Part shown: positions 6,743-63,284 of the stretch, piece after piece
Position numbering within the stretch: position 1 is the first letter of the stretch
Layout: each line of letters begins with the position of its first letter
Made by a program: the position numbers and the translations under genes
NCBI GenBank assembly: GCA_032139905.1
Contig: JAQJDB010000007.1
Location: forward strand, 744,001-808,000
Length of the DNA stretch: 64,000 nucleotides
Source: Nitrospira sp. MA-1
Lineage (GTDB): Bacteria > Nitrospirota > Nitrospiria > Nitrospirales > UBA8639
Direction: 5' to 3'
The notes under the pieces: generated by a model
The model's input: the letters and a program-made list of their open reading frames with translations, nothing else
The model's database searches: none
Told to the model about the DNA's origin: nothing

Positions 6743-7804
6743 ATGACACACCACACAGCAGAGGGCGGTGAGACAGAAAAGGCAAACATGGCGACAGAAG
6801 CCTCGACACTCCACGATGAAATTGAGTTGTTAAGGCAGAGACTGGCCTCGCTCGAGGCCAGCGTGCCGGGCTATGCTCCCAACCAGCCGCATGGCAAGAA
6901 AGGGAAATCCAGAACTACCCGAAACGCCGTTGTTCTTCTGGCAGCAGCTGGCATGCTGGCAGTACTCGCCGGTGCGGGTATGGTCTATAGCGAAGAAGCT
7001 CTGCACGCATTATTTGTCAGCACGAATGGTTACGTCGGCATCGGGACGACGCAGCCAAGTCAAAGGTTAACGTTAGGCTCTGGTAACATTCTGTTGCCAA
7101 ATGCCAATGGTGAGAATGATGGGAATCTTTATTTTGGTGGCACTACAAATGCCGGCCAAAATGGACTCAGGCTATTTGGCGGTCTTGTCAATGGGGCTAT
7201 TCCTGCAGGATTTGTAGATGTCCGAACCACTGATCCAAAGGATGGCTTAAGAATCCGTGTTGATACTGCAAATGGTGGCACCGAAAGAATGCGGGTTACG
7301 GCAGAAGGCAACATCGGCATAGGGACGGATGCACCGAAGGCGAAGCTGGATGTCCAGCAGGATAATCGCATCGGTGCCCATCCGGCTTCTGTCCGGGGGT
7401 TGTATGTAACTGGAGATTTCTCGCCCGACAGCGGCGTGGAGTTTCGCCACAGTAATGGAAGCCAAGGGATTGGGTTTGGATACAATACGATCTACGCAAC
7501 AGGAAACAATGCTAGTCAAGATATAAACTTGAAGCCACGGGGAAACGGCAAGGTGAACATCGCCGGTCAACTCGAAGTCAAAAGCGTAAAAATAGGCAAT
7601 GCCGTCGTTGGAGAAAAGGAACTACTGGCTTTGAAAAAATTGGCTTCGGGAACTCTCATAGTCGATCTGTTTAATACCAAACAAAAAGAGTACCTGTATG
7701 CTGCGGATTATGCGCCCTATGACAAAGATCGACGACGTGTTTTTACCTGGAGGAAGGGAAATCGCATCAATCAGGGCCACTGGCAGTTAAGATTCGCTAG
7801 ATAG
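6743..7804 (+). CDS. Membrane-anchored fibre-like protein with GIGT repeats
   Basis: 353 residues, start supported by GGAAGGGG upstream. Residues 20-45 are heptad-like (LLRQRLASLEASV), residues 60-83 form one transmembrane helix after a Lys/Arg-rich stretch, so the bulk lies outside the cytoplasm. Two VGIGT/IGIGT-P motifs (near residues 97 and 190) are the short beta-strand modules typical of trimeric phage tail fibres and bacterial surface fibres. The C-terminus lacks a recognisable S74 chaperone triad. It follows the propeller operon by 307 bases on the same strand. Probable surface fibre or adhesin; this is inference from motif style. Confidence 0.75.
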   Translation: MTHHTAEGGETEKANMATEASTLHDEIELLRQRLASLEASVPGYAPNQPHGKKGKSRTTRNAVVLLAAAGMLAVLAGAGMVYSEEALHALFVSTNGYVGIGTTQPSQRLTLGSGNILLPNANGENDGNLYFGGTTNAGQNGLRLFGGLVNGAIPAGFVDVRTTDPKDGLRIRVDTANGGTERMRVTAEGNIGIGTDAPKAKLDVQQDNRIGAHPASVRGLYVTGDFSPDSGVEFRHSNGSQGIGFGYNTIYATGNNASQDINLKPRGNGKVNIAGQLEVKSVKIGNAVVGEKELLALKKLASGTLIVDLFNTKQKEYLYAADYAPYDKDRRRVFTWRKGNRINQGHWQLRFAR

Positions 7805-59689: not shown

Positions 59690-61420
59690 CTACGGTGTAG
59701 TAAACTGCGTAATCTTACAGCTTGGCGAATTGGGTAGGGGCGATCCTGCATGGAACTGCTCGGCGCATTGCTTGATTTCAAGCGCAGCATCAGCCGTCGC
59801 TTGGTTAAAGGTGTCCTGCCCGGGCGTCATCCAGATCGGCGATGTGGCTGAGTGTGGGTGCTTACTCTCCTGGGAAGGGGCTGTGGCCTTGATACCTAAA
59901 TCGAGCGCCGTGCCATTGCTGGGGACGTTGCCGGTGTTACTCACATTGTTCACTCCCATGCGATGACAGCTGTTGCATAGATTGTCGTTGACCTCGACCT
60001 TGTAGGCTTTCCACGAGGCGAAATCAGCGCCGACAAAGGAATAGGGCTCGGGGTCGCTGTTGAAGGTGATATCACCCGCACCGGGTAACTGGTTTGGGCC
60101 TGATATTTGGGCGAGATACGGGGATCGGATGATTGGCCCATTGTCATGGCAACTCACACAGGGGAATTTGCTGTTGACAATTTGTGACGGTGTCATCCAG
60201 AAAGCTGGATTGCCCACTCCCTTGGAAGGCGCCTTGACCTTTCCATCGTGGCTTAAGTGAAAGCCTTCTTCTAGCGCCCCCTGATAGAAACAGGTTTTGC
60301 CATTGACTTTATTGTGTTGGATGACTGCCACGTCGCCATACTGCCCTTGGGGTAGGCCCATCTTTCGGGCATGCGCCACCACATATGCGTCTGGCGTATT
60401 GACCAGCACCCGGAAGCGGCTCCCACGATCACATTTTCCGTTGAGCACGTTCGGACGATCACAGGTGCCGTCTGGATAGGTCGCAGTAGCCGGAGTGAGA
60501 TGATCGGTTGGAACCGTTGTCCCCAAAGGGCTATCGACGTCGAAATCGGGAACAGACACACCGATGGCCTGATCGCATTCCTGGGCAAAGGCTGCAAGGG
60601 CATCCGTTCCTCCCGGTGCGGTTAGGAGTCCTGCCCAATTTCCCTCAACAGGCGCAGGATAGCCGAGTCCTCCATCACTTTGATCGTCGGCTCGATCCGC
60701 ATCCACGTCATACCGCATATACTGATTGCCTTTAAAAAAATAGACAACCGTCTTTCCCTCGAACGGCGTCGGCCAGGCCACCGCACCATCGACTCCATCT
60801 GGAAACTTGAAATTGGGCCAATTGCCTGCAATGGGCTTCGGGTAGCCCGGGTCAGCCCGATGCCTCTTCACATCAAAGCGGATGTACTGATTATCCCGGA
60901 AAAAGTATGCGACGGTCCTGCCGCTTCTCGGCACAGGCCAAACCACCACGGCATCCACCCGATCTGTCCAGATCCCAGGCCACTTCAACGAGATCGGCTG
61001 GGGGTAGGCCCGGCCCGCGCCGTCTGCTGCATCAGCCCGATCCGCATCCACGTCATACCTCATGAACTGATTTCCTTTGAAGAAGTAGGCGACCGTCTTG
61101 ATTTCTGCTCCTCCCGGAGGCGGCGCAGGCCAAAAGACTGCCGCGTCCATGTTTTCCTCAAAAAGTCCAGGCCAGTTGTTCCGGATAGGGCGGGGGTAGG
61201 CATTGCCACTGCCATCGTCACTGTCCGCCATATCCCGGGTGATGTCGTATCGGGCATACTCCCTTCCCTGGAAGAAATAAACCTTGCCGTTATTCCATAC
61301 CACCGGCACCAGTTTCTCTGAACCGGTCAACTGGGCCCAAACGTCCACGGTCCCATAGAAACCCACCGCGATGAACATTCCGCAGATTGTTGACATGAAA
61401 ATTTTACGAGACATTCTCAT
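59690..61420 (-). CDS. Secreted hemopexin-repeat protein with dihaem CxxCH C-terminus
   Basis: 576 residues. Signal peptide to about 30 (WAQ). Residues 35-280 form four hemopexin repeats of about 55 residues, each with the YFFxGNQYxRYD strand and WPG/GNW turn, predicting a four-bladed propeller. The C-terminal 290 residues hold two haem c motifs, CVSCH (421-425) and CNSCH (482-486), among Asn/Gly/Pro-rich loops with GTxxG and FHLSHDGK. Propeller and c-haem domains in one chain are unusual. AAAGGGA lies before ATG 61420. Extracytoplasmic; redox role likely, partner unknown. Confidence 0.88.
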   Translation of the reverse strand: MRMSRKIFMSTICGMFIAVGFYGTVDVWAQLTGSEKLVPVVWNNGKVYFFQGREYARYDITRDMADSDDGSGNAYPRPIRNNWPGLFEENMDAAVFWPAPPPGGAEIKTVAYFFKGNQFMRYDVDADRADAADGAGRAYPQPISLKWPGIWTDRVDAVVVWPVPRSGRTVAYFFRDNQYIRFDVKRHRADPGYPKPIAGNWPNFKFPDGVDGAVAWPTPFEGKTVVYFFKGNQYMRYDVDADRADDQSDGGLGYPAPVEGNWAGLLTAPGGTDALAAFAQECDQAIGVSVPDFDVDSPLGTTVPTDHLTPATATYPDGTCDRPNVLNGKCDRGSRFRVLVNTPDAYVVAHARKMGLPQGQYGDVAVIQHNKVNGKTCFYQGALEEGFHLSHDGKVKAPSKGVGNPAFWMTPSQIVNSKFPCVSCHDNGPIIRSPYLAQISGPNQLPGAGDITFNSDPEPYSFVGADFASWKAYKVEVNDNLCNSCHRMGVNNVSNTGNVPSNGTALDLGIKATAPSQESKHPHSATSPIWMTPGQDTFNQATADAALEIKQCAEQFHAGSPLPNSPSCKITQFTTP

Positions 61421-62465
61421 AGCGTAATCCCTTTCTTACCTTACCTATCCATTGCGTATATTCCGCTCATTTTCTCATTCCCCAAACATCCTCTGTGTTG
61501 CTCGAATAAGCAAAACCCATTCCCCTCAAATCGGGTGTGCAAGAAAGCCCTTCCGGCTTCTGATTGATAGCTCCTACTGGCTCTAGACTTCATATCCCTG
61601 CTGATACTGCTGCCCTCAACTCCACATGCGTTGCGGGTATCAATGACGATACACGTCGTATCGAATTAGATACCTATTCTCTTATGGGCGACTGTCACAG
61701 AACTTCAAAATCACTACCCCCAAGTTCTGGGGGGAAAGTCTGTTGTTGAAAGTTTCGTACCGAGGAGTTAAGGGGAGGAAAATTTAACCAGATTTATTTT
61801 AGTCGATTTCTGGTTCGTGAATGGCTTAATACGGTAACGGTGGCGGGAGTTGTTCTGGTCTGTAGAGGTTGGAGATTTTGGGTCAAATCATTTGTTGATA
61901 GTGTTCCCTCTCGGTGGAACTTTGGCTAAATGAGGTGTCGGCTGCTGGTTCAGAGTCTCTATGTCCTTCAGAAAAGTGGTTGTATGTTTAAATGAATTTT
62001 CTTGCCGGGGGTCGGCCCGGCAGCCGAGGTCCTTTTGTTTCGGCAAAAGGACCCAAAACCATGGTGGCCGTGGCCTGGCCCTTCGGGTTCCCTCCGCGGT
62101 TCGCCGACCCCGGCGGCGCACAAACTCGCTGCGCTTGAACAATGTGCGCCTTGTCTCCGGTGCCGGCTGCACTGCTCGGCCACACCACAAGGCCAAAGGA
62201 AGATGCCAAAAAATTGAGTCCCTTTCTGATGGCTGGCCAATCCGCTATCTTCACCCCAGGCCCGCCGATCAGTAAGAGCATCAGATGCTGGGACTGGGCG
62301 GCAGGCGTCGGAGCGGAGAAACAGGGAGGATTTCAAGATTTGAGTTTCTTCTGAAAATTTTTTAACTCGCGGAGGTGATACACGGCTTGACTAATTTCGC
62401 TCGTTGAACAAGAATCCGCCTAAACGTTGCTAGCATTTACATATAAATAATCACTTGAGGAAACA
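61421..62465. other. Intergenic with repeat copy C, no gene seen
   Basis: About 1.05 kb. Only the repeat at 62001-62150 stands out. Leader of the TIR gene at the end (GAGGAAAC before ATG). Confidence 0.5.
62001..62150 (-). repeat. Dispersed hairpin repeat, copy C
   Basis: Reverse orientation relative to A and D. CCCGGCAGCCGA, then the perfect 10-bp inverted repeat GGTCCTTTTG (62028-62037), loop TTTCGG, CAAAAGGACC (62044-62053), then CCCAAAACCATGG, GGGTTCCCTCCGCGG and ACTCGCTGCGCTTGAACAA. Confidence 0.8.
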
Positions 62466-63284
62466 ATGAAAATATTTGTGAGTTGGTCTGGGAAGAGAAG
62501 TAAGGCAGTGGCAGAATTAATCAGTGATTGGCTGAAGTGTGTCATTCAAGCTTCTCAACCATGGATTTCTACTAGGGATATTGATCGTGGAGCGATTTGG
62601 TTTTCCGAAATAAGCGATAAGCTCAAAGATGTATCTGTTGGCGTCGTATGCCTAACTCAGGAAAATAAAGAAAAGCCTTGGATCTTGTTTGAGGCCGGTG
62701 CCTTGGCAAAAGGATTGACTACTAATCGAGTATGTACATTCTTAATAGATTTGAGCCCTGAAGATTTACAAGATCCGCTTGCGCAATTTAATCACACGTT
62801 GCCAGTCAAAGACAGTGTGTGGGAATTGACGAGAACGATAAATGCCTGTCTCGGTGAAAAAGCTCTTGATGAACGAATCTTGAAGCAAGTATTCGATACA
62901 TACTGGGCTCAATTTGACAGGAATTTCAAAGAGGCGCTAAAGGAGAACCCTCCAGGAGAAGTCGTGCCTCCTCGCTCGGAACAAGATATCCTCTCTGAAA
63001 TTCTTGCCAATACAAGAAGTTTGACGAACAGAATCAGAAACCTTGAATCCGAGGTCCATATAAAATCCAAAAACAGATTTTTTAATTCAATTAACTCAAT
63101 TGAATTTGAAAAAAACATCAGGAAGAAAATAATCAACCTAATTCAATCAGGAAAATTTAGTGAGGATGAAATAATTTCTTCTTTGATAGACTATGACATC
63201 CCAGAATCTTATGCTCGCGATTTCATCAAAAACACGATGCTGAGTCTTGGTCTTAACGAGATAGGGAAGATTGCCAACAAGTAA
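62466..63284 (+). CDS. TIR-domain protein
   Basis: 272 residues. Residues 1-135 match bacterial TIR-like domains: FVSWSGKRSK at the start, WISTRDIDRG, VCLTQEN, and the catalytic-Glu region WILFEAGAL (Glu76), which in active TIRs cleaves NAD. Residues 135-272 are helical, charged and Lys-rich with no recognised domain. AT-richer than its surroundings. No Thoeris ThsA, STAND or other partner is next to it; repeat copies C and D flank it. Defence or stress effector is likely, by family, not shown. Confidence 0.87.
   Translation: MKIFVSWSGKRSKAVAELISDWLKCVIQASQPWISTRDIDRGAIWFSEISDKLKDVSVGVVCLTQENKEKPWILFEAGALAKGLTTNRVCTFLIDLSPEDLQDPLAQFNHTLPVKDSVWELTRTINACLGEKALDERILKQVFDTYWAQFDRNFKEALKENPPGEVVPPRSEQDILSEILANTRSLTNRIRNLESEVHIKSKNRFFNSINSIEFEKNIRKKIINLIQSGKFSEDEIISSLIDYDIPESYARDFIKNTMLSLGLNEIGKIANK

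Follow-up and report, generated by a model that had tools for sequence, protein, structure and literature searches.

A hemopexin propeller joined to a putative dihaem electron-transfer module in a predicted secreted protein of Nitrospira

The 64,000-nucleotide stretch of Nitrospira sp. MA-1 DNA analysed here (the window) encodes, at 59690..61420 (-), a 576-amino-acid protein in which a predicted signal peptide and a four-bladed hemopexin propeller precede a C-terminal half carrying two CxxCH motifs. The reading that we favour, at somewhat better than even chances, is that the protein is a secreted dihaem cytochrome, inducible and tethered through its propeller. In such a device the C-terminal half would act as a small dihaem cytochrome, braced by probably three disulfides, that takes up electrons and hands them on outside the cytoplasmic membrane, and the hemopexin propeller would dock it to a partner protein, a polysaccharide or the cell surface, much as a carbohydrate-binding domain places an enzyme. 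Sigma-54 RNA polymerase would turn on transcription, helped by an enhancer-binding activator that occupies a tandem pair of GTATC-N6-GATAC palindromes. Computed here are the anatomy of the protein, the conservation of its motifs, the homology of its C-terminal half to a gene that stands third in molybdenum-hydroxylase operons, an exchange of the attached domain in one relative, and conserved elements upstream of the gene.

A preliminary description made from the sequence alone had proposed hemopexin repeats followed by two CxxCH motifs in one secreted protein outside known families, and each part of this outline is borne out. Residues 1–30 (61331..61420 (-)) read by eye as a signal peptide ending in VWA before Q, with the putative cleavage falling between MRMSRKIFMSTICGMFIAVGFYGTVDVWA and Q, a pattern that relatives share. 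Four stretches of the protein match Pfam Hemopexin (PF00045; E 2.3e-24, 85.5 bits), and residues about 35–268 (60617..61318 (-)) form a four-bladed propeller, the fold of a hemopexin-like domain, modelled mostly at pLDDT 80–96 in a full-length AlphaFold prediction from nine sequences. Fold searches with residues 28–270 of the model aligned 196 residues with the MMP14 propeller (3c7x; Z 24.1, rmsd 2.2; VIA-align), followed by vitronectin (Z 22.1), plant seed proteins (Z about 22) and serum hemopexin (Z about 18). The remaining residues, about 272–576 (59693..60607 (-)), make up the dihaem module, delineated by its motifs and relatives; its N-terminal boundary is taken from a relative (locus L016) in which the module comes directly after the signal peptide. 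The module contains CVSCH at residues 421–425 (60146..60160 (-)) and CNSCH at residues 482–486 (59963..59977 (-)), read from the sequence and the alignment, and its identity as a dihaem c-type domain is inferred from this pair of motifs.

Both motifs are strongly conserved. Loss of CxxCH in homologues had been named beforehand as the finding that would speak against the proposal; we looked for it and found both motifs preserved in every one of 18 distinct sequences, among them four stand-alone relatives from proteobacteria that are about 30% identical, which indicates that the motifs do not occur by chance. Invariant across the 18 aligned sequences are CHD and CHR, six further cysteines and H369 (60314..60316 (-)), a candidate distal haem ligand (the alignment prints residue numbers five higher, and H369 appears there as H374). 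The module therefore holds ten cysteines, four in the two motifs and six others, all invariant, and the six may pair as three disulfides. H369 is the sole invariant histidine outside the motifs and no methionine is invariant there, which leaves the two haems without an obvious conserved pair of axial ligands. Within Nitrospirota H350, H523 and M531 are also conserved, in an alignment that is uncertain near the C-terminus. No family in Pfam or NCBIfam matches the C-terminal half over the cut-off; the hits to cytochrome c profiles are all sub-threshold, paired_CXXCH at E 0.36 for the window protein and others at E 0.002–0.4 for relatives. AlphaFold models the module with low confidence, both alone (mean pLDDT 39.7 from ten close sequences) and in the full-length prediction (below 50). 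The sole match in a profile search of the PDB was MtrC (E 1.5), which we take as chance similarity around CxxCH.

Operon context of distant relatives points to what the module may do. Outside the phylum, a tblastn search of plasmids picked up free-standing homologues of the C-terminal half in Burkholderia, Salipiger and Rhizobium that are 27–31% identical to it, with E values from 1e-16 (Burkholderia) to 6e-12 (Rhizobium); BLASTP gave 30% identity. Burkholderia pyrrocinia and Salipiger abyssi each encode the relative, annotated 'hypothetical protein', as the last member of an overlapping gene trio. Ahead of it come a molybdopterin-binding large subunit (MoCoBD_1, MoCoBD_2) and a [2Fe-2S] protein, and the open reading frames in the Rhizobium and Burkholderia arboris records stand in identical order. 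Third genes with two CxxCH motifs lie at L017:7929-8903, L018:7941-8954 and L019:5902-6888, and in L020 in an open reading frame ending at 6918. Molybdoprotein-cytochrome aldehyde dehydrogenases follow a comparable three-part plan, with a large subunit, a [2Fe-2S] subunit and a tri-haem c subunit (PMC9171043). On the strength of this plan and of the third-gene position, we infer that the two-CxxCH third gene of exported molybdenum-hydroxylase operons probably encodes an uncatalogued electron-transfer subunit, and that the homologous module of the Nitrospira protein most likely serves in electron transfer. The electron role raised in the preliminary description is thus the part of its functional proposal that the operon context of relatives would support. 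In the window's genome we found no MoCoBD_1 protein, and such an enzyme is missing from seven of the eight other genomes with the gene (one of the nine module-bearing genomes has one). The enzyme that partners the proteobacterial relatives is accordingly absent, and the Nitrospira module would work without it.

One relative shows that the module can be attached to a different domain. In G199 (L016:832-2421) the signal peptide is followed directly by the module and then by about five repeats of about 44 amino acids, each with a C-x4-C pair, and there is no hemopexin propeller in the protein. The repeats are tectonin-like, their Tectonin match in Pfam (E 1.2e-4) lying below the cut-off, and the G199 module is about 56–59% identical to the others. 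As judged from these sequences, what stays constant is the dihaem module, and its companion domain changes in both kind and position. Given this swap, the propeller acts as a binding module that can be exchanged, which favours a docking role, and we regard the hemopexin propeller as probably a docking or binding module. A broader and more tentative idea, which we hold to be possible rather than likely, is that secreted dihaem modules with swappable docking domains constitute a modular kit for extracellular electron transfer, its variants having a hemopexin propeller ahead of the module, tectonin-like repeats after it, or no added domain beside a molybdenum hydroxylase, and in Nitrospira standing free of any molybdenum enzyme under a dedicated sigma-54 regulon.

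Three other readings of the protein deserve weighing against a tethered electron carrier. The propeller might bind free haem while the CxxCH module passes electrons or takes up haem, as the preliminary description had envisaged in proposing haem handling as one option. Serum hemopexin structures do appear among the fold matches, and there is a precedent in plants for a hemopexin-fold protein that binds a haem analogue (PMC6934871). The comparison nevertheless turns against this reading on closer inspection of the propeller. In serum hemopexin, haem sits between two propellers and is gripped by two histidines. The present protein has a single propeller, and its hemopexin part contains one histidine, four methionines and no cysteine; its best structural matches are the propellers of MMP14 and vitronectin, and in one relative tectonin-like repeats take its place, as expected of a binding module. 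Haem capture by the propeller is consequently unlikely, and we give the haem-handling device as a whole very little credence.

The other two readings concern the C-terminal half. One haem with an open site could make the module an enzyme or sensor, acting as a peroxidase or binding gas or peroxide, with the propeller targeting it. That H369 alone is invariant outside the motifs, with no methionine kept family-wide, would leave room for a haem that lacks a conserved distal ligand, and a larger cytochrome-like protein encoded downstream of the Rhizobium operon shows a weak resemblance to di-haem peroxidases (E 2e-7, well short of the cut-off). Against this, the uncertainty of the C-terminal alignment and the retention of H350, H523 and M531 in Nitrospirota mean that the ligand may differ between clades, and a third-gene position beside a [2Fe-2S] subunit suits a carrier better; we consider an enzyme or sensor unlikely, though deserving of some weight. 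Alternatively, the CxxCH motifs may not be haem sites at all, serving instead as disulfides or metal ligands in a structural or adhesive secreted protein, a suggestion that draws on the cysteine richness that six further invariant cysteines would give the C-terminal half anyway and on the lack of a cytochrome profile over the cut-off. It fits poorly with the invariance of the histidine of each motif along with both its cysteines, followed by an invariant D or R, with the even number of the other cysteines, which can pair without those of the motifs, and with the location of relatives in redox operons, and we judge it improbable. Haem attachment at both motifs, and with it a redox function, is the interpretation that we prefer for the tethered protein.

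The region upstream of the gene contains two blocks that stand out in an alignment of upstream sequences. Nearer the gene is a predicted sigma-54-type −24/−12 promoter, GGGAATGGGTTTTGCT (61509..61524 (-)), with the GG-N10-GC spacing, about 104 bp before the ATG. Farther up are tandem GTATC-N6-GATAC palindromes, GTATCTAATTCGATAC (61658..61673 (-)) and GTATCGTCATTGATAC (61637..61652 (-)), the second 21 bp from the first. Hemopexin-bearing relatives keep nine consensus letters of the promoter element, at −101 to −107, and retain the paired palindromes with at most one mismatch each, the pair being farther upstream in G036; G199 has two near-palindromes 22 bp apart and a weaker promoter match. The arrangement of a conserved GG-N10-GC element with candidate activator sites about 100–200 bp further up is, at the level of sequence, that of a sigma-54-dependent gene, and the genome encodes RpoN (rpoN). 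Tandem palindromes occur at three places in the window's genome (G000; C3:54078, C5:470062 and C7:805637) and single palindromes at 17, compared with none for a control pattern. Some GTATC-N6-GATAC sites lie close to sigma-54-like promoters that precede genes encoding exported proteins, and the sites possibly mark an undescribed regulon. A GAF-type sigma-54 activator is encoded beside the tandem site at C5:470062 (L045); we set it aside as the regulator, since the second palindrome-retaining genus has no close copy of it.

Searching for like proteins yielded full or partial copies at ten loci in Nitrospira and Nitrospirales genomes, with 78–98% identity. The module is present in 9 of the 395 genomes of the phylum sample, in two genera of one order; the range outside Nitrospirota reflects one contig scan sensitive to close relatives only, together with a plasmid collection. 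A search of viral contigs with the dihaem-module alignment found no relative. A search of papers on hemopexin with Nitrospira or with cytochrome c, in which subscription journals were thinly covered, did not turn up the architecture either. Neighbouring genes vary between lineages. In one Nitrospira lineage, two adjacent paralogues of about 520 amino acids are encoded divergently beside the gene (L007:4258-7579, L066:2911-6696), and a separate small hemopexin-repeat protein with no obvious signal peptide or CxxCH adjoins the pair in G036 (L066:2269-2880). The window's genome has its copy of the pair elsewhere, at C7:100575-103811 (L053:4576-7812), where a similar sigma-54 element (L053:4478) precedes it by about 98 bp. 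These paralogues have no Pfam match, and, given also their separate location in the window's genome, we did not retain them as a clue to function. Upstream of the gene, at 62466-63284 (+) of the window, lies a gene for a TIR-domain protein (PF13676, just over the cut-off), possibly a defence gene.

Nitrite-oxidising Nitrospira are key nitrogen-cycle bacteria of flocs and biofilms. In such organisms a conserved, regulated and exported dihaem protein with a gripping domain would be a candidate for electron exchange or for the handling of reactive species outside the cell. The analysis also points out an uncatalogued cytochrome-like family, one whose proteobacterial members, annotated 'hypothetical protein' in molybdenum-hydroxylase operons, are probably the electron-transfer subunit.

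Among known systems, the cytochrome c subunit of molybdenum hydroxylases, as in the aldehyde dehydrogenase of acetic acid bacteria, comes close to the module: the proteobacterial relatives are likewise exported and encoded with MoCoBD and [2Fe-2S] proteins. They have two CxxCH motifs instead of three haems and match no Pfam family over the cut-off, and the Nitrospira gene further differs in having no neighbouring molybdenum enzyme and a propeller fused on. Homology links the Nitrospira protein to these putative subunits (E 6e-12 to 1e-16), whereas encoding beside molybdenum subunits is confined to the proteobacterial relatives. At the level of motifs, two CxxCH and a predicted signal peptide are what a c-type cytochrome would have. 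Matrix metalloproteinases (MMPs), vitronectin and plant seed hemopexin-fold proteins likewise possess one complete four-bladed propeller; unlike them, the present protein is bacterial, has no protease or vitronectin parts and carries a dihaem module. Serum hemopexin shares the hemopexin repeats, but with its second propeller and second histidine missing here, its known haem site has no basis in this protein. Bacterial hemopexin-repeat proteins named in papers include the photopexins of Photorhabdus, and hemopexin-repeat proteins of Nostoc and Streptomyces are about 39–43% identical in their best plasmid matches, the Nostoc protein being unlike the present one in having neither CxxCH nor a dihaem module. 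The architecture had no precedent in the collections searched, and it is built on a known propeller fold and the principle of c-type cytochromes.
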